Shown: one piece after another, positions 13,990 to 22,476 of the stretch
How positions within the stretch are numbered: the stretch's first letter is position 1
Layout: each line of letters opens with the position of its first letter
Source: Celeribacter sp. HF31
Lineage (GTDB): Bacteria > Pseudomonadota > Alphaproteobacteria > Rhodobacterales > Rhodobacteraceae
Reading direction: 5' to 3'
NCBI RefSeq assembly: GCF_011806455.1
Contig: NZ_JAATOT010000005.1
Coordinates: 62,001-126,000 of the forward strand
DNA length: 64,000 nucleotides
The notes under the pieces: generated by a model
Seen by the model: the letters and a program-made list of their open reading frames with translations, nothing else
What the model was told of the DNA's origin: nothing
Database searches by the model: none
Made by a program: the position numbers and the translations under genes

Positions 13990-14053
13990 ACCGGCCCTGC
14001 ATTTGTGCAGAGTTTTCTTAGGGTGAATGTCATCTCTGTGTTACATTGGGTGC

Positions 14054-14380
14054 ATGAGCATCCGAAACACAGTTCTATTGAGCGGCATGGGCGCAGTTTT
14101 GGCGCTGGTTGGCCTGCGCGCCGAGGCGCAAAGCCTGATCGGAGAGGTGCTCTGCGGTCCGCAACAGGAGATCCATGCCAAGCTCGCCCGCCAATTCGGC
14201 GCGGTCAAAACCGGCACGGGCCTGCGTGGCCCCGAGGCGGTGATGGAGATTTGGACCAACCCAAAATCCGGCGACTGGACGCTTGTGCAGACCTATGTCG
14301 AGGGGCGGAGCTGCATCGTCGCCATGGGTGAATATTGGGAAGATCTCGCACCGACAGAGGCCCCGGAGACGGCGGGCTGA
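14054..14380 (+). CDS. Small exported protein of unknown function
   Basis: 108 residues from the ATG of MSIRNTVLLSGMG, which begins a signal-like hydrophobic segment (to about residue 26, RAEAQ). An upstream in-frame start is less likely because it would bury this signal. The mature part contains two cysteines (LCGPQQE and RSCIVAMGEYWE) and the segment GPEAVMEIWTNPKSGDWTLVQTY. I do not know its role. It is convergent with the SGNH hydrolase gene. Confidence 0.65.
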   Translation: MSIRNTVLLSGMGAVLALVGLRAEAQSLIGEVLCGPQQEIHAKLARQFGAVKTGTGLRGPEAVMEIWTNPKSGDWTLVQTYVEGRSCIVAMGEYWEDLAPTEAPETAG

Positions 14381-14383
14381 GCC

Positions 14384-15022
14384 TCAGTCTTCGGCAATTT
14401 CCGACAGGATAAACCCGGCCACGGCTTGCCCCAGAGCCTCATGGGCCGCAGCATCGAAATGCACGCCGTCCAGATCGGAGACAGAAATCACCTCATTGGC
14501 GTCGAAGACGGCGACATCGCGGGCGTCGGCCTCGGCACGCATGGCGTCCTGAACCGCCTGGGCTTTGTCCGCCGCGCCGACATAGGTCTCGGCCAAACAG
14601 CCCGCCGCATGGGGCCGGGGCGGCAGGATGAGGAAGGGTTCGAACCCGCCGTGACGGGCCTGCATCTCTTCCGACAATGCGACGTCGAGGTGAAAGCCAC
14701 AGGCGGCGGCGATGTCTTCGGGCGCGGCCTCGAAATGCGCCTTGAGATCGTTGGTGCCCAGCATGATCGTCATCGCGTCAATTGGCCCGTGGCTTTCAAG
14801 CGCGGTGAACAGCCCGATCCGCCCGTCCATATGCGGCCCCATTTCGGGATCGGGAAAAGCAAAAGTACGCCCCGGCAGACCCTCTTCGACCACATTCCAA
14901 CCCAACACGTCGGCCATCACCACAGGCCAGCGGCGGGTGAGGCGTGGAAGATCGGTGGGGCGGGTGCGCATCGGCTGAACGCCGTGGGTGTTGCTGTCGC
15001 CGAAGGTCAGGATCAAAGGCAT
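14384..15022 (-). CDS. SGNH/GDSL-family hydrolase (arylesterase-like)
   Basis: 212 residues without a signal peptide, so probably cytoplasmic. The four SGNH blocks are visible: GDSN with Ser10, Gly in the LPGRTF region, GTND with Asn91, and DGVHF with Asp185 and His188. These enzymes are esterases, thioesterases or lipases of broad range; this one resembles bacterial arylesterases. Substrate unknown. Confidence 0.88.
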   Translation of the reverse strand: MPLILTFGDSNTHGVQPMRTRPTDLPRLTRRWPVVMADVLGWNVVEEGLPGRTFAFPDPEMGPHMDGRIGLFTALESHGPIDAMTIMLGTNDLKAHFEAAPEDIAAACGFHLDVALSEEMQARHGGFEPFLILPPRPHAAGCLAETYVGAADKAQAVQDAMRAEADARDVAVFDANEVISVSDLDGVHFDAAAHEALGQAVAGFILSEIAED

Positions 15023-15092
15023 CGGGGTCTCCCAAAAGAAAAGCGGCCCCGAGACTGCGCCCGGAACCGCCGACTTTCAAGATCGAAAAGCT

Positions 15093-15299
15093 TTAAAGCG
15101 CGACAAGTTCAGAGGCGGATGCGCGTCCGTCGCGGCCTTCACGAAGTTCGTAGCCGATCTTCATGTTGTCTGCGAGGCCGGTCATGCCAGCGCGTTCGAC
15201 CGCAGAAATGTGCACGAACACATCCTTGCCGCCGTCGTCAGGTGCAATAAAGCCGTAGCCTTTGGTGGTGTTGAACCATTTCACGGTGCCAGTGGGCAT
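15093..15299 (-). CDS. Cold-shock domain protein
   Basis: 68 residues, a single OB-fold cold-shock domain. RNP1 is KGYGFIAP and RNP2 is DVFVHI. It binds single-stranded RNA or DNA and acts as an RNA chaperone. The start MPTGTVKWFN is preceded by AAGGAG. A leader of over 100 bases lies upstream, as is usual for csp genes with temperature-sensitive mRNAs. Confidence 0.95.
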   Translation of the reverse strand: MPTGTVKWFNTTKGYGFIAPDDGGKDVFVHISAVERAGMTGLADNMKIGYELREGRDGRASASELVAL

Positions 15300-15528
15300 A
15301 TCCCCGTATCTCCTTATCGTTTCATCCGCCGCAACGTGCGACGGGCCGGTGCAGCCAGGTCTTCCAAGTCTTCCTGCTGCCCCGTAAGGAGCGGTCGTTC
15401 GAAAGTCAGCAGTCACGCTTTCGAGTGTGCAACACATCCGTATAAAGGCAAGCGACAAAATCGTAACACATGGCCAAGTGCCGAAATTTGGGCAAAATGC
15501 CACCAAAATTGCCATTGAGGAGAGCGAA

Positions 15529-15840
15529 ATGACCGTGATTTATGGGATAAAGACCTGTGACACCTGCCGAAAAGCGGTGAAAGCGCTGGGGGTGGAGTTG
15601 ACCGATATACGCACAGAATCCCTGTCCAAAGAGCAGCTTGAGCGATTCTATGCCCAGTTTGGCGAGGCTTTGGTCAACACGCGCTCGACCACATGGCGCG
15701 GGCTGTCGGAAGAAGAACGGGCGCGTCCACCGCTCGATCTTTTGGCGGATCATCCGACGCTCATGAAACGTCCGGTGATCGAGAAAGACGGTGAGCTCTA
15801 TCTCGGCTGGGGCAAGGATGTGCAGGCGGCACTTCTTTAA
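15529..15840 (+). CDS. ArsC/Spx-family thioredoxin-fold protein
   Basis: 103 residues from the ATG after GAGGAGAG. The N-terminal MTVIYGIKTCDTCRKAVKAL has the CxxC of the ArsC/Spx/YffB family, and LMKRPVIEKDGELYLGW is the conserved C-terminal signature with the arginine. It could be a glutaredoxin-dependent arsenate reductase or, more likely given no ars genes nearby, an uncharacterised YffB-type protein. Divergent from the cold-shock gene. Confidence 0.85.
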   Translation: MTVIYGIKTCDTCRKAVKALGVELTDIRTESLSKEQLERFYAQFGEALVNTRSTTWRGLSEEERARPPLDLLADHPTLMKRPVIEKDGELYLGWGKDVQAALL

Positions 15841-15887
15841 CCTGCCCGCAAGAACGCCTATGTGACAGCGACAAGAGAAGGAGAGCG

Positions 15888-16259
15888 GTGATGCGCAACG
15901 CGGCGCTGGTGCTTGGGGTTTTGGGTGGCGTGCTCGCCATGTTTGTCGGCTTTTTCAGCTTTGGCTACACCGAGGCGATTGATCGTTGGGGCGAGGTCGA
16001 GGGGCTGTTCGAACAGGTGGCGAATGTCGATCTGATCCGGGCGGCGAGCTTTCTGGCCCCGCTCCTCGCCATCGCAGGCGGCGCCATGGCCCACGCCCGC
16101 GCCCTTTGGGGTGGGCTGTTGATGTGGGCGGCGGCAGGCCTGATCTACGTCGGCTTTGGCTTCAACGTCTTTACCATGTTCCCCTTGGGCTTCTGCGTCC
16201 TGGGCGGTTTTCTGGCACTGGCGGCGGGCAAACCGGACGAGGCCAAGGCGCATTTTTAA
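15888..16259 (+). CDS. Small integral membrane protein, unknown function
   Basis: 123 residues starting GTG-ATG after AAGGAGAG. Four hydrophobic segments can be seen (about 5-27, 50-68, 72-92 and 95-113) with short charged loops and almost no cysteine. Function unknown. Its last four bases overlap the stop of the convergent DoxX gene of the bufferin cluster. Confidence 0.7.
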   Translation: MMRNAALVLGVLGGVLAMFVGFFSFGYTEAIDRWGEVEGLFEQVANVDLIRAASFLAPLLAIAGGAMAHARALWGGLLMWAAAGLIYVGFGFNVFTMFPLGFCVLGGFLALAAGKPDEAKAHF

Positions 16260-16792
16260 CTGGGATTCAGGCGATTGAAAATCACCCGATCCAATGAGGC
16301 CCAACCTCCACCAAGTCCGACAAGCGTGAGCAGGACCATCCCCCAAAGCGCGCGTTGGTCAAAGATCAGCGCATCGGAATGCCGATCGAACAGCGCGCCA
16401 ATGGTCGCCATGTCGAGACCATGCCCGATCACATCGGTGAGGCTTTGCACGAGGACAAAGCCGATCATGCCCAGAGCGGCGAGCCGTGTTGCGAGACCTA
16501 GAACAATCAGCAGGGGCAAGAGGAATTCGGCGTAGGTTCCCGCCATGATCACCAGCCATTCAAATGAACCAAAGCCAGAGATGTCATAGCCTGCGGCTTC
16601 CATTTTGCGGGGAAAAATCTGGGCATAGGCGTTGAAGGACGGCGTGAACGGCCCCTCCAGTTTGGTCAGAGCCGAGGCCCAGAAATAGCGCAAGAGCACG
16701 GCGGAAAAGGTGAAACGCGCCAGCAGGGGCAGGGCGTTTATGGCCGCTGCGTTGGTTTGGGCCAGCTTGGTCGAGAGCATATCGTTACACAT
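16256..16792 (-). CDS. DoxX-family membrane protein of bufferin cluster (BufD-like)
   Basis: 178 residues with four hydrophobic helices of the DoxX type. The start MCNDMLSTK follows GGAGAGGG and lies 8 bases inside the preceding DUF2063 gene, so it is translationally coupled. DoxX proteins are quinone-linked membrane proteins often tied to thiol oxidation. In Caulobacter-type bufferin operons the last gene is a DoxX protein, proposed to assist the metallophore in the envelope. Its exact reaction is not established. Confidence 0.85.
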   Translation of the reverse strand: MCNDMLSTKLAQTNAAAINALPLLARFTFSAVLLRYFWASALTKLEGPFTPSFNAYAQIFPRKMEAAGYDISGFGSFEWLVIMAGTYAEFLLPLLIVLGLATRLAALGMIGFVLVQSLTDVIGHGLDMATIGALFDRHSDALIFDQRALWGMVLLTLVGLGGGWASLDRVIFNRLNPS

Positions 16793-17519
16793 CGTGATCC
16801 CTCTCCAGAATGTCGATGATGGCGCCGCCTTTCAAAAGCGTGCCGAGAAATTGCGAAAGGTCGAGATCCGAGGGCGCAAGTTCGGCGGCATTCGCGAGCG
16901 CCATACCGTCCCGCAAGGCGTCAAGCACGGCACAGGTGCCAGGCGGAAAGGCGGTGGCGACGGGGTCGAAACCCGGACGTGTGATCAGTACGTCCTCCGC
17001 CCCGCCCGACGGTCGGTCGCCGTCCAGGGCAAATCGGCGCAGTTTGGTGACCGGATAGGCGCTTGCGAGCCAGATGACGGTCGGCGCGAGCACCACTTGG
17101 CGGGTGAACAACAAGGGATCGGAGAACTCCGCCGCAGGCACAGGGCGCGTGTCTGCGGCGTGATAACTTTGGCGCAGCGCATATTCGAGACGTGCCACAT
17201 CGCCGAGATAGGGCAGGCGGGAGGCCGGGGCAAAGCTGTCGATAAACGCCGCAAAATCAGCCCCATAGAGAGGCAGGATTGGCGTTTTGGGGGGGTGCGC
17301 GCGGACGTAGTCTCCCGTCATCGCGTCGAAAAACGCGTCTCCGACGAGGGATTTCACCGCCGGATAGGAGGCGGCGATGGCCTCTTTGAGGCCCACGATG
17401 ATGTTGTTGCGATAGACGTCGAAGCGCCGCTTGGCTGGGGTGCCCGACGGGGTGATGAGACCCGCCGGGATCGGGGCCTCGGGCGCAAGTGCGGCTTTGA
17501 TGAAGTCCTGCTGTTTCAT
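16785..17519 (-). CDS. DUF2063 partner protein of bufferin cluster (BufC/HvfC-like)
   Basis: 244 residues. The N-terminal domain (QDFIKAALAPE..., with RRFDVYRNNIIVGLKEAIAASYPAVKSLVGDAFF at about residues 31-64) is DUF2063, the putative DNA-binding-like domain found next to DUF692 enzymes. It is thought to deliver the precursor peptide to the MNIO enzyme. Its ATG overlaps the stop of the MNIO gene (ATGA at 17516-17519), which argues for a 1:1 complex. Confidence 0.9.
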   Translation of the reverse strand: MKQQDFIKAALAPEAPIPAGLITPSGTPAKRRFDVYRNNIIVGLKEAIAASYPAVKSLVGDAFFDAMTGDYVRAHPPKTPILPLYGADFAAFIDSFAPASRLPYLGDVARLEYALRQSYHAADTRPVPAAEFSDPLLFTRQVVLAPTVIWLASAYPVTKLRRFALDGDRPSGGAEDVLITRPGFDPVATAFPPGTCAVLDALRDGMALANAAELAPSDLDLSQFLGTLLKGGAIIDILERDHDV

Positions 17520-18376
17520 ACCAGCACCTGTTCGAGACGGAGCGCAGCACGGGCGACCTCAGAGGCCAGAACCTCCCACTCGGGCACATCCGTGTCCCAT
17601 TCGATGAGCGTCGGCTTCGGCCCGCCAGTGGCCAGAGCGTAGGTGTAAAGATGCCAGACCGGATCGGCGACCTCGCGACCGTGGCTGTCGATCAACAGCG
17701 GTGCGCCGTCTTCGTCCTGATCCTCATCGTGACCGCCAAGGTGGATTTCCCCCACGGCCTCATGCGGGAAGGCATCGATATAGTCATAGGCGTCGATCCG
17801 CAGGTTGTTGGCGGAGACGAAAACATTGTTCACATCAAGCAAAAGCCCGCAACCGGTGCGCTTGACGACAGCGCGCAGGAACTCGACCTCGCCATAAGTG
17901 CTTTCGGCGAAAGCCAGATAGGAGGACGGGTTTTCCAAGAGCATCTGTCGTCCGAGAGTGCTTTGCACCTCGTCAATGTGGTCGCACACACGGGCGAGGG
18001 TTTTGGCGGTATAGGGGAGGGGCAGAAGGTCGTTGAAATAACCTGTGTCGTGCGTCGACCAGGCGAGATGTTCGGAGAAGGAGGCGGGGTTGATCTCGTC
18101 GATGAGATGGCTCAGCCGCACGAGGTGATCCGGATCAAGGCGGCCCTCGCCGCCAATTGAAAGCCCCACGCCATGCACGGAAATGGGAAAGCGATCCGAC
18201 AGCGCGCGCAGCTGTGCCATCGGACGTCCGCCCGCGGCGCCTTTTTCGCCCATGTAGTTTTCTGCATGGATTTCGAACCATTTCACCGGGTGATCCCCCT
18301 CGGAAATGTTCGAAAAGTGCTTGGATTTATATCCCACGCCGACGCCCATCGGCAGCTGATTTGTCTGGTCCAACAT
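17516..18376 (-). CDS. MNIO (DUF692) peptide-modifying oxidase of bufferin cluster (BufB-like)
   Basis: 286 residues from the ATG preceded by AGGAGG seven bases upstream; an upstream TTG would contain that ribosome site. This multinuclear non-heme iron oxidase family has a TIM-barrel with His/Asp/Glu iron ligands, seen here as FEIHAENYM, SVHGVGLSIGG, SEHLAW, LENPSSYL, LLLDVNNVFVSANN, EIHLGGHDED and EWDTDVP. Characterised relatives convert precursor cysteines to thiooxazole or related groups. It follows the precursor gene by 69 bases and is coupled to its partner gene. Confidence 0.93.
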   Translation of the reverse strand: MLDQTNQLPMGVGVGYKSKHFSNISEGDHPVKWFEIHAENYMGEKGAAGGRPMAQLRALSDRFPISVHGVGLSIGGEGRLDPDHLVRLSHLIDEINPASFSEHLAWSTHDTGYFNDLLPLPYTAKTLARVCDHIDEVQSTLGRQMLLENPSSYLAFAESTYGEVEFLRAVVKRTGCGLLLDVNNVFVSANNLRIDAYDYIDAFPHEAVGEIHLGGHDEDQDEDGAPLLIDSHGREVADPVWHLYTYALATGGPKPTLIEWDTDVPEWEVLASEVARAALRLEQVLV

Positions 18377-18445
18377 CGAAGCCTCCTGCAAAATCGGGAA
18401 AAATGACCCGGCGCATGTGGTCCGTCACGCGCCGGGCCAAACCGG

Positions 18446-18751
18446 TTAGCTGTCCATCGGCAGGTCGCGCTCAAGCGCTTCGAGCGAGCCCATGCGTTCT
18501 GTGCCGTCCATCATGGCCGGAAGCTCGATGTCGGCGCAGGTGCCGGCGGGCACCAGCGTCCAGGCGTTGCCTTGGTAGTCGACTTTCGAGGTGCCGGCAC
18601 AGGTCGTGCCCGGACCTGCCGCGCAGCCGTTTTCACCGGCCAGCGCCACGCCGTAGCATTTTTCCTGCTCTTGGGCAGAGGCGGCGTTCGCGATGGAGAG
18701 GGCGGCGGTCATTGCGCCAAGAAGGGCGAGGGTTTTCGATTGAGTGCTCAT
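18446..18751 (-). CDS. Bufferin-type precursor peptide (DUF2282)
   Basis: 101 residues with a Sec signal peptide ending at about residue 26 (NAASA). The mature part has four cysteines, Cys32, Cys43, Cys51 and Cys72, in [24 protein letters not shown] and VPAGTC, the pattern of the DUF2282 bufferin family. In Caulobacter such precursors are modified at the middle cysteines by an MNIO enzyme and then bind copper in the periplasm. The C-terminal 25 residues are acidic and Met-rich. GGGAG precedes the ATG. First gene of a four-gene operon (precursor, MNIO, DUF2063, DoxX). Confidence 0.9.
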
Positions 18752-18850
18752 TGGGTGTGTCTCCCGTTAGGTTCATGCGTTTCCGCCGTCAGTGGCGGTG
18801 AACACAGATTGGCCCACCGGGGCGGTCACAGGCCATTCACGGGGACGTCA

Positions 18851-18868
18851 CCTGACGCGTGTGTCAGG
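18851..18868. promoter_or_regulatory. Dyad upstream of the bufferin operon
   Basis: CCTGAC (18851-18856) and GTCAGG (18863-18868) form a perfect dyad with a 6-base spacer, 100 bases upstream of the precursor start. It could be an operator for a metal- or stress-responsive regulator. No regulator gene is adjacent, so this is only a candidate site. Confidence 0.35.
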
Positions 18869-19056
18869 GGGTGAAACAAACGGATTTGTGATTTGATCCG
18901 GCGGCGAAACTGGTCCGCGAGGTCCACATTCAATGTCTGGAATTTTTGTGAGGTATCTATTTTGAGCGTATACTCAAGTATTTGTCGGCCAAAATCCGCC
19001 GATCTGCACCTGTAACAATTCTCACGCAAAAAGCGATATCGCGTGTGCCGCAATGC

Positions 19057-19083
19057 AAAAGGCCCCCGAAGCGGGGGCCTTTT
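19057..19083 (-). terminator. Terminator of thrS
   Basis: AAAAGGCCCCCG (19057-19068) and CGGGGGCCTTTT (19072-19083) form a 12-bp stem with a 3-base loop, 20 bases after the thrS stop on the minus strand. The run of A on the plus strand gives the T tail in the thrS direction. Confidence 0.92.
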
Positions 19084-19102
19084 CGTTTCAGATATGTCTG
19101 AA

Positions 19103-21049
19103 TTATTTCAAGTCCGGCGCGAGTGCGGCGTCTTTCAGCTCAGCCACGATGTCCGCAAGTGACATCATCGCGGTCTGTTTTTCGCCCAAACGGCGCACGG
19201 AGACGGTCTTATCGTCGACCTCGCGGGCACCGACGGCCAGAATCACCGGCACTTTGGCGAGGCTGTGTTCGCGGACCTTGTAGTTGATCTTCTCGTTTCG
19301 CGTGTCGGCCTCGGCCCGCACACCGGCGGCTTTGAGAGCGGCCACGACCTCGGCGGCGTAGTCATCCGCCTCGGAGACGATGGTGGTCACAACGACCTGA
19401 CGGGGCGCGAGCCAGAAGGGCAGTTTGCCCGCGTGCTCTTCGATCAGAATGCCGATGAAGCGCTCGAAAGAGCCCACAACCGCGCGGTGCAGCATGATCG
19501 GGCGGTGTTTCGCCCCGTCCTGACCGATATAGCTGGCGTCCAGTCGCTCCGGCAGGTTCGGGTCAACCTGAAGCGTGCCACATTGCCATTCGCGGCCGAT
19601 GGCGTCGGTCAGCACGAACTCAAGCTTCGGCCCGTAAAACGCCCCTTCGCCCTCCTGAATCTCATAGTCGTAACCGGCGGCTTTACAGGCGTTGCCGAGA
19701 GATTCTTCGGAGTGATCCCAGCTTTCTTCGGACCCGATGCGTTTTTCGGGACGGGTCGAAAGCTTGATCGACCAGTCGTTGAACCCGAGATCGGCGTAGA
19801 TTTTCGCGAGGAACTCGATGAACTTCTTGGTCTCCGCTTCGATGTGCTTTTCTTCGCAGAAGATATGCGCGTCGTCCTGCGTGAAGCCGCGCACCCGCAT
19901 GATGCCGTGCAGCGCGCCCGAGGGTTCATAGCGGTTGCACGAGCCAAATTCGGCCATGCGCAGCGGCAGGTCGCGGTAGGATTTCAAACCCTGATTGAAC
20001 ACCTGCACGTGACAGGGGCAGTTCATCGGTTTCAGCGCGTTGACAGTCTTCTCGCGGGCATGATCCTCGTCCACTTCGACGATGAACATGTTTTCCTGAT
20101 AGTTGTCCCAATGCCCCGAAGCTTCCCAGAGTTTGCGGTTCACCACCTGCGGCGTGTTCACCTCGACATAGCCGTCACGCTCTTGTTGGCGACGCATGTA
20201 ATCTTGCAACGTGGTGTAGATTTTCCAGCCGTTCGGATGCCAGAAAATCTGACCCGGCGCCTCTTCCTGCATGTGAAAGAGGTCCATCTCTTTGCCCAGC
20301 TTGCGGTGATCGCGCTTGGCGGCCTCTTCCATCATCAATTCCCAGGCCTTCAGATCCTTGCGGTTCTTGAAAGCCACGCCATAGATGCGCTGCAACATCG
20401 GACGCGAGCTGTCGCCCAACCAATAGGCCCCGGCCACATGGGTCAGTTTGAAGGCATCCGCAGGCACTTGCCCGGTGTGTTGCAAATGCGGACCGCGGCA
20501 GAGATCCTGCCAGTCGCCATGCCAGTACATCCGCAAATCCTCGCCTTCGGGAATGCGGTTCACAAGCTCGATCTTAAAAGGCTCACCCTTTGCGTTGTAA
20601 TAGTCAATCGCCTCGTCACGGCCCCACACTTCGGTCTTCACCGGCTCACGGGCGTTGATGATGTCCTTCATCTTCGCTTCGATCTGACCAAGGTCCTCGG
20701 GCGTGAACGGCTCTTCGCGGTCGAAGTCATAGAACCAGCCATTGTCGCGCACCGGGCCGATGGTCACTTTGACGTCGGGCCAAAGTTCCTGCACCGCGCG
20801 CGCCATGATATGCGCAAGGTCATGCCGGATCAGTTCGAGCGCCGGCGCATCGTCTTGCATGGTGTGAATGGCGATTTGGGCGTCCGCGTTGATCGGCCAC
20901 TGGAGGTCCCAGTGCTGACCGTTGACGGACGCGGAGATCGCTTTCTTCGCAAGGCTGTTGGAAATGCTTGCGGCCACATCGGCAGGGGTCACGCCAGCAT
21001 GAAACTCGCGCGAATTGCCATCGGGGAATGTGAGAGAAATCGGTGCCAT
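19103..21049 (-). CDS. thrS: Threonine--tRNA ligase
   Basis: 648 residues, class II synthetase. It has an N-terminal TGS domain (about 1-60), the editing domain with the HxxxH-type motif ([17 protein letters not shown]), the catalytic core with zinc ligands in [10 protein letters not shown] and in [12 protein letters not shown], and a C-terminal anticodon-binding domain ([19 protein letters not shown]). It charges tRNA-Thr and edits mischarged serine. Divergent from the MFS gene. Confidence 0.97.
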
Positions 21050-21162
21050 ATCTTTAGGCTCTCCTCGTCGGTTTGGCGCCTACCAAGCGCCCGGTTGCGG
21101 GTATATGTGTTTGCCCTATGTCTTCTTTTGAATGTGTAAAGTCAATGTGAAAGGTTTCCCAT

Positions 21163-22476
21163 ATGTCTCTTTCCGAGCGTCTGTTTCGGACCCTGTCCGG
21201 TTCGAAAGACGCGCAAGGCACGGCCGAGGGTCTGAGCGATCAGGCAACGCGGGCCGAACCCACAAATTTCCTGCGCCATGTCGGTGCTTTGTCGATGACC
21301 AAATCTGCCGATGGGCTGTTCGATCCCAAATTGGTCCTGTCCTGGCTGATGTCGCATCTGGGCGCGCCGGCCGCGCTCATCGGGCTTTTGGTGCCGATCC
21401 GCGAGGCAGGTGCGCTTTTGCCGCAGCTTTTCACCGCGCCGCGCGTTCACCGTATGGCACAACGCAAATGGGCCTGGGCCTTGGCCGGTCTGGGGCAGGG
21501 GATTGCCGCCGCCGCTCTCGTGCTCATCGGGTTGACTTTGACCGGCTGGGCCGCGGGCGTTGCGGCCTGTGTCGCCGTCGCCTTTCTGGCCGTGTCGCGC
21601 TCGGTGGCCTCGGTCAGCTACAAAGACATCTTGGGCAAGACCATCGCCAAGACCCGACGCGGTGCGGTTACCGGCACCGCAAGTTCCGTGTCCTCCGTGG
21701 CGGTTGTGGCCTTCGCGCTTTTGCTGATCTTTGCGCCTGTGGACCGTTACGCTCTGGTGATCGGCGCACTTGCGGCGGCTGCCGTGCTTTGGGGGCTGGC
21801 CTTCGCAATCTTCTCCACTCTGCGTGAGGAAAAGGACCCCGGCGAGGGCCGCGAAAAGGTTCTGGCCCAGCTCAAACTTCTCAAACACAAGCCCATGCTG
21901 CGCCGCTTTATCTATGCCCGGGGGCTTTTGACCGGCACGGCACTCGCCCCGCCTTATCTGATCGTCTTAGGCGCACAGGCGGGCAATGGCACGTTTGAGG
22001 CCTTGGGCGCTTCCGTTCTGGCCTCCGCGCTCGCGTCTTTCTTGTCGTCCTACGTCTGGGGGCGGCTCGCGGATCGCTCGTCGAAAACTGTGCTGGCACT
22101 CTCGGGCCTCTTCGGCGCCGCCGCCCTCGTGTTGGGTGTCACGCTTGATCTCATGGGGCTCTCCGCGACCTCTTGGGCCATCCCATTGTCGCTCTTTCTC
22201 TTGATGATTTGCTATCACGGCGTGCGTCAGGGCCGCTCCACCTACCTTGTCGATCTCGCCCCCGAAGATCAGCGCACCGCCTATACCGCCGTTGCCAACA
22301 CGGTGATCGGCGTGATTTTGCTGGGATCGGGTGTGATCGGCGCCGTGGCTTCTGCCCTCGGTCCGCATGCGGCGCTTTTGAGTTTCGCAGGGTTGGCACT
22401 GGCGGGAGCTGTTGTTGCGTTTCGTCTTGAAGAGGTCGAGGAGGGCTTTTCGCTTTTCGCCATGGAAAAAGACTAA
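21163..22476 (+). CDS. Major facilitator superfamily transporter
   Basis: 437 residues with about twelve hydrophobic helices; the loop PRVHRMAQRKW and the repeat-like loop WGRLADRSSKTVLA (near residue 300) match the MFS loop 2-3 and 8-9 motifs. A hydrophilic N-terminal tail of about 40 residues precedes the first helix. GAAAGG precedes the ATG. Substrate unknown. It is followed by an alpha/beta hydrolase gene after 62 bases. Confidence 0.85.
   Translation: MSLSERLFRTLSGSKDAQGTAEGLSDQATRAEPTNFLRHVGALSMTKSADGLFDPKLVLSWLMSHLGAPAALIGLLVPIREAGALLPQLFTAPRVHRMAQRKWAWALAGLGQGIAAAALVLIGLTLTGWAAGVAACVAVAFLAVSRSVASVSYKDILGKTIAKTRRGAVTGTASSVSSVAVVAFALLLIFAPVDRYALVIGALAAAAVLWGLAFAIFSTLREEKDPGEGREKVLAQLKLLKHKPMLRRFIYARGLLTGTALAPPYLIVLGAQAGNGTFEALGASVLASALASFLSSYVWGRLADRSSKTVLALSGLFGAAALVLGVTLDLMGLSATSWAIPLSLFLLMICYHGVRQGRSTYLVDLAPEDQRTAYTAVANTVIGVILLGSGVIGAVASALGPHAALLSFAGLALAGAVVAFRLEEVEEGFSLFAMEKD

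Follow-up and report, generated by a model that had tools for sequence, protein, structure and literature searches.

The bufABCD cassette and its products

The window analysed here, a 64,000-nucleotide stretch of the genome of Celeribacter sp. HF31, carries a complete bufferin-type cassette for a ribosomally made, cysteine-containing precursor and the proteins that accompany it. Four genes, bufA-bufB-bufC-bufD, follow one another in the same direction on the minus strand (16256-18751). Ahead of bufA there is a tandem two-dyad element, and a hairpin lies between bufA and bufB (Table 1). An earlier note on this DNA had proposed such a cassette in a roseobacter, and this observation is confirmed: the precursor is a DUF2282 protein with cysteines at positions 32, 43, 51 and 72, the MNIO enzyme, the DUF2063 partner and the DoxX protein are intact, and bufB/bufC and bufC/bufD overlap by 4 bases (17516-17519) and 8 bases (16785-16792), respectively. 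Its interpretation held in part, for the bufferin-type cassette and not for the suggestion that a Met-rich tail of the precursor is a second metal site. All four Pfam matches (DUF2282, MbnB_TglH_ChrH, DUF2063 and DoxX) score above their own gathering scores, and a search of the window's genome finds DUF2282 and MNIO encoded once each. The bufB gene could start at a TTG at 18391 (17516-18391) or at an in-frame ATG at 18376 that is preceded by AGGAGG (17516-18376).

BufB reaches 368.3 bits against the NCBIfam model NF050167 (MNIO_BufB, cut-off 310), which places it in the bufferin-maturase branch, and 232 bits against the HvfB model, under the cut-off of 360. An identity as an oxazolin (Hvf) cluster was considered and rejected, with the window proteins below the cut-offs of the HvfB, HvfC and HvfX models alike. 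By sequence the best solved-structure match to BufB is 3bww (E 2e-42), reported as an MNIO from Histophilus somni (PMC13097082). The candidate metal ligands H73, H108, E153, N154, D186, N188, H217, D235 and H237, numbered from the TTG start, are each kept in 99-100% of 119 BufB sequences, and therefore the loss of iron ligands that the earlier note had thought could undo its reading is not seen at the sequence level. A D-x-H pair and an Asn of BufB resemble, by sequence comparison, the type of residue studied at site 3 of HvfB; the exact mapping of the remaining ligands is one that we assume. The HvfB site-3 residues reported as examined are N175, D242 and H244 (PMC13419390). BufC adjoins the MNIO, and its length suits a DUF2063 plus RRE-type domain protein, for which about 250 residues are expected in a PME-type 1 partner.

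In an alignment of 122 BufA sequences, which includes the window copy and some genomes twice, the four cysteines are invariant, as are G34, N41 and G48. The N terminus looks by eye like a signal peptide ending near residue 26 in A-x-A, and A26 is found in 93% of the sequences. According to the earlier note the acidic, Met-containing tail after Cys72 could be a second metal site, and the window's tail does hold Met80, Met81, Met87, Met99 and Asp82; however, it is without His or Cys, the Met positions are poorly kept in relatives (Met80 46%, Met81 13%, Met87 63%, Met99 17%), and the linker at positions 80-85 is a gap in 14-24% of the aligned sequences. What roseobacters conserve instead is a C-terminal motif of non-metal character, RxGSLExLxRDLP (residues 86-98; the end of BufA corresponds to window 18446-18496 on the minus strand), in which R86, G88, S89, L90, L93, R95, D96 and P98 are retained in 87-99%. 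Because the Met residues vary while the motif is kept, the tail is more likely to be a recognition or structural element, as far as conservation tells, and a second metal site appears very improbable. A role of the conserved end as a handle is possible. Across the class, precursors with R[DE][LIM]P near their end are a minority (4/30).

The cassette was compared across 118 fetched loci (108 distinct), all chosen for having BufA or BufB; the named loci are the best 80 of 256 by similarity to the window's BufB, so that the set is biased to roseobacters. The order A-B-C-D is retained in 107 of the 118, and the cassette is therefore not a chance arrangement. BufA is present in 39/61 relatives searched, DUF2282 in 100/289 genomes of the class, and the best two named BufB matches are both from Celeribacter, at 96 and 95% identity. 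In the usual neighbourhood thrS is followed by bufABCD and then by an ArsC/Spx-like gene and a cold-shock gene, and thrS falls within the same fetched stretch in 89/108 distinct loci. Two loci (L049 and L129) have a tandem pair of bufA copies ahead of a single bufB. Facing bufD in the window is a membrane-protein-like open reading frame of 123 residues (15888-16259, plus strand), which in many roseobacter loci adjoins the ArsC/Spx-like gene and which matches nothing in Pfam or NCBIfam. An Rfam search of window positions 14000-22000 matched no family.

Table 1. Positions of the cassette genes, the candidate control features and thrS in the window
Feature	Position	Strand	Description	Support
bufA	18446..18751	-	DUF2282 (Buf1) bufferin precursor, 101 aa	Pfam 4.9e-24
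bufB	17516..18376	-	MNIO (PF05114) bufferin maturase, likely ATG start	Pfam MbnB_TglH_ChrH 3.3e-101; NF050167
bufC	16785..17519	-	DUF2063 partner protein (PME-type 1), 244 aa	Pfam 4.8e-25
bufD	16256..16792	-	DoxX-family membrane protein, 178 aa	Pfam 4.3e-9
Tandem two-dyad operator-like element upstream of bufA	18826..18876 (core 18833-18866)	-		Sequence comparison of relatives
14-bp hairpin (18404-18439) then TTTTT, between bufA stop and bufB start	18399..18439	-	Terminator/attenuator or 3' stabilising hairpin	
thrS	19103..21049	-	Same strand as the cassette; usual upstream neighbour in fetched roseobacter loci	Pfam

The two-dyad element upstream of bufA

In the window the element has the form TGAC-N6-GTCA-GG-TGAC-N6-GTGA-ATGG and is placed about 88 bp ahead of bufA; its letters from 18866 to 18833 are TGACACACGCGTCAGGTGACGTCCCCGTGAATGG. 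The block shared upstream of bufA in relatives consists of TSAC-N6-GTGA, one base, NCAC-N6-GTGA and then ATgG; the Celeribacter form has its dyads one base further apart. For the comparison we took the 98 upstream regions whose fetched stretch contains a single bufA and has thrS on the same strand, which gave 88 distinct sequences. The two-dyad pattern, which was written after the sequences had been seen, occurs without any anchoring in 78 of these 88 regions, compared with 1 of 1760 shuffles. Conservation also reaches columns on which the rows had not been anchored: in a refined set of 83 regions (L051, L102, L115, L128 and L035 being left out) A at -23 and C at -22 are kept in 86%, T at -35 in 84% and T at -25 in 81%. 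Some 28 bases past the element there is a weakly conserved, TA-containing block resembling a -10 box, and no -35 box stands out; this layout suggests an activator.

A model was built from 76 of the 83 sites (leaving out L070, L089, L094, L122, L135, L144 and L150) and searched against 41 genomes, the best 142 candidates per genome being scored. In 18 of the genomes it gave a significant site (E no higher than 1.9e-7), always upstream of bufA, and the next match down was at E 0.0072. Among the same numbers of candidates, genomes without bufA gave no match with E below 0.03, and the model search found no significant site in seven genomes that do have bufA (G006, G037, G039, G040, G045, G046 and G049). 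In the window's own genome, searched with up to 3 mismatches, the only perfect match to the pattern is at bufA, the pattern itself having been drawn from such sites. Matches with 2 mismatches occur at two other places on contig C7 and on the opposite strand of the bufA site. The excess of loose matches over a control read backward makes it possible that the same putative regulator has weaker sites elsewhere in this genome.

The element, NrsF and the candidate regulator

Some published Buf1 clusters are reported to carry genes for an extracytoplasmic function (ECF) sigma factor and for the anti-sigma factor NrsF (PMC12452194), and NrsF and the element do not occur together in our set. Specifically, the 108 distinct loci divide into 85 with the element only, 9 with NrsF only, 14 with neither and none with both; if only the loci with thrS are counted, the corresponding numbers are 83, 4, 2 and 0. 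NrsF-like open reading frames were found in 9 of the 118 loci, with flanks of 5-6 kb searched around most loci and shorter ones around some, and the element is missing from all 9. An NrsF match is present in 9/61 genomes searched. A search of the window's genome with PF06532 (NrsF) gave no match, in an assembly that is 96% complete; the search was for NrsF and not for the sigma gene.

The promoter sequences mostly follow the same division. In Caulobacter the sigma-F site is reported as GTAACC-N16-CGAA (PMC3511200). The related pattern GTAACn-N16-CGAA is found upstream of bufA in 7 of the 9 NrsF loci and nowhere in the 64-kb window; among the other 109 loci, 3 have a similar site with the spacing varied by one or two, at a distance of more than 220 bp in two cases. 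The fetched stretch also contains thrS in four of the NrsF loci, which suggests from the arrangement of the genes that the control switch may have been exchanged in place. One genome of the same genus that is without bufA has nothing more NrsF-like than a short piece (G005:C1:520463-520669) containing two stop codons, perhaps a relic of a sigma-F arrangement.

For the protein that would read the element, the closest likeness is to the CusR box of E. coli, AAAATGACAAnnTTGTCATTTT, whose half-sites and spacing, TGAC-N6-GTCA, are the same as those of the window's first dyad; E. coli CusR is reported to have these half-sites and a very small regulon (PMC11195947). The window differs from the CusR box in having two tandem dyads with different inner bases, and from the CusR system in that no cusRS is seen among the neighbours and no TIGR01387 regulator scores over the cut-off. 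This heavy-metal response-regulator model (CopR/CusR) reaches its cut-off in 0 of 61 genomes, and therefore the likeness is a lead only. The window's genome does have 5 matches with E no higher than 1e-40, all of them under the cut-off. Outside the roseobacters, the GIG operon of Legionella, a bufferin-type cluster, is reported to respond to gold and copper, its regulator being described as unidentified, with a part for RpoS suggested (PMC5413113).

These responses bear on what the element senses and how it works. A bufferin operon could be controlled here by a repressor that binds the element, or mainly by a signal other than copper, such as gold, chromium, cadmium or an oxidant. The homologous Caulobacter operon is reported to depend on sigma-F, with chromium and cadmium as inducers (PMC3511200), the Legionella operon answers to gold as well as copper and may involve RpoS, and the CopR/CusR model reaches its cut-off in none of the genomes searched. 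Set against this, the characterised Buf1 products are reported to buffer copper (PMC12452194), and the weakly conserved -10-like block lies downstream of the element, clear of it, an arrangement that suits an activator better. We consider control by a repressor or by a mainly non-copper signal unlikely, if far from negligible.

The hairpin after bufA and the probable working of the operon

The hairpin between bufA and bufB, with 14 bp and a T run, has a folding energy of -30.5 kcal/mol (z -4.04). Most relatives fold in the same place: over 112 distinct stretches the median z of the 60 nucleotides past the bufA stop is -3.02, and 83 of them lie below -2, while control stretches inside bufA have a median z of 0.20 and fall below -2 in 7 of 112. 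Within 100 nucleotides past bufA, 41 of the 112 have a stem of 8 or more pairs with T-rich sequence behind it, compared with 10 of 2240 shuffles, and the hairpin sequences listed for these loci vary between genera. This over-representation suggests that more precursor than enzyme is made, and the hairpin is likely to act by partial termination or by 3' protection.

A rival view is that the hairpin and the upstream dyads control nothing, and either arise from the GC-richness of the intergenic DNA or are terminator-like repeats of the ordinary kind. The gene thrS too is followed by a GC-rich inverted repeat and a T run, and a simple scan of the region yields 6 terminator-like sites for a shuffle mean of 3.4. 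However, dinucleotide-preserving shuffles fold far less well than the stretches after bufA, the two-dyad pattern is present in 78/88 regions and 1/1760 shuffles, and the columns of the element outside the anchors (T at -25, and A at -23 with C at -22) are kept as well. We regard this explanation as remote.

Our preferred reading is that the window encodes a Buf1 bufferin operon with a copper-buffering product, whose two-dyad operator is likely bound by an activator and whose hairpin favours precursor mRNA, and we put its probability at about 0.8. By analogy with characterised relatives, BufA would be made with a Sec-type signal, a BufB-BufC complex would oxidise the central Cys43 and Cys51 to copper-binding thiooxazoles, Cys32 and Cys72 would form a disulphide, and the modified BufA would be exported to the periplasm to buffer excess copper, with BufD (DoxX) as an accessory membrane protein. 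In Buf1 the two central cysteines are reported to be modified and the outer two to be in a disulphide, and for the Caulobacter product thiooxazoles, copper binding and a growth benefit under copper are reported (PMC12452194). The regulatory roles are suggested by layout: in Celeribacter and most of the fetched roseobacter loci, where NrsF is not paired with the cassette, an activator on the upstream two-dyad operator most likely turns the operon on, and the hairpin past bufA would leave more precursor mRNA than enzyme mRNA.

Several points count against this reading, or against the strength of its evidence. BufC reaches 46 bits with the HvfC model (cut-off 142) and BufD 20.5 bits with the HvfX model (cut-off 80), both of them equivalog models that were built for the oxazolin branch. 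AlphaFold models of BufA have a mean predicted local distance difference test score (pLDDT) of only 49.2 from a single sequence and 55.5 from 52 sequences, which is too low to support a search by fold. The first column count covered 87 of the 88 distinct upstream regions and included four (L051, L102, L115 and L128) without the element, and its GTGA and CAC columns were enriched by the method, in part circularly, because these two motifs had served to anchor the rows. The search of 41 genomes was limited to the 142 scored candidates per genome and used stricter filters. The model finds the element in 95 of the 118 loci (8/30 in one subset and 87/88 in the other), having been built from many of those same loci; in the first subset 27 loci lay outside the model, and 5 of these match (L035, L049, L129, L138 and L148), the remaining 22 being mostly NrsF or non-thrS loci. 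In the window's own genome the pattern with up to 3 mismatches gives 30 matches, compared with 10 for a control read backward. The strict hairpin-plus-T pattern is missing from 71 of the 112 loci, 14 of the 108 distinct loci have neither switch, and the CopR/CusR model reaches its cut-off in none of the 61 genomes. Finally, the exclusion of element and NrsF has a Fisher p of 2e-7 over the 108 distinct loci, a value that overstates its significance because the loci are related by descent.

The comparison with known systems separates the cassette from its control. In core content, a DUF2282 precursor with four cysteines and a signal-peptide-like N terminus, an MNIO, a DUF2063 partner and DoxX, the window resembles the Buf1 operon of Caulobacter vibrioides (CC3254-CC3257). 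That operon is driven by sigma-F through GTAACC-N16-CGAA, whereas the window has the tandem-dyad element, no such site, and no NrsF match in its genome. The oxazolin/captophorin clusters (HvfABC, FonABC), whose product is reported to contain 5-thiooxazole (PMC13097082), share an MNIO and a DUF2063 partner; their precursors, in contrast, have EGKCG repeats, and the window's BufB, BufC and BufD stay under the Hvf cut-offs. The biosynthetic cassette belongs to a family that is known and widespread, and is an unremarkable example of it. Among the titles and abstract openings of the literature matches listed, there is no published account of a bufferin operator or of a hairpin after bufA, so that a known kind of operon here has a control variant not found in print among those matches.

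A broader proposal, for which we would offer even odds, is that in roseobacters a dedicated regulator, which reads a two-dyad operator found only at bufA, has taken over from the sigma-F/NrsF switch at a single chromosomal site close to thrS, the ratio of precursor to enzyme being set by a bufA hairpin that arose in different sequence forms. An operator-like site that is exclusive with NrsF and significant at bufA only offers a handle by which a new regulator that responds to stress could be found in marine bacteria. The hairpin in turn could be used to examine, in a simple way, how enough precursor for metal buffering comes from an operon in which the enzymes are encoded as well.

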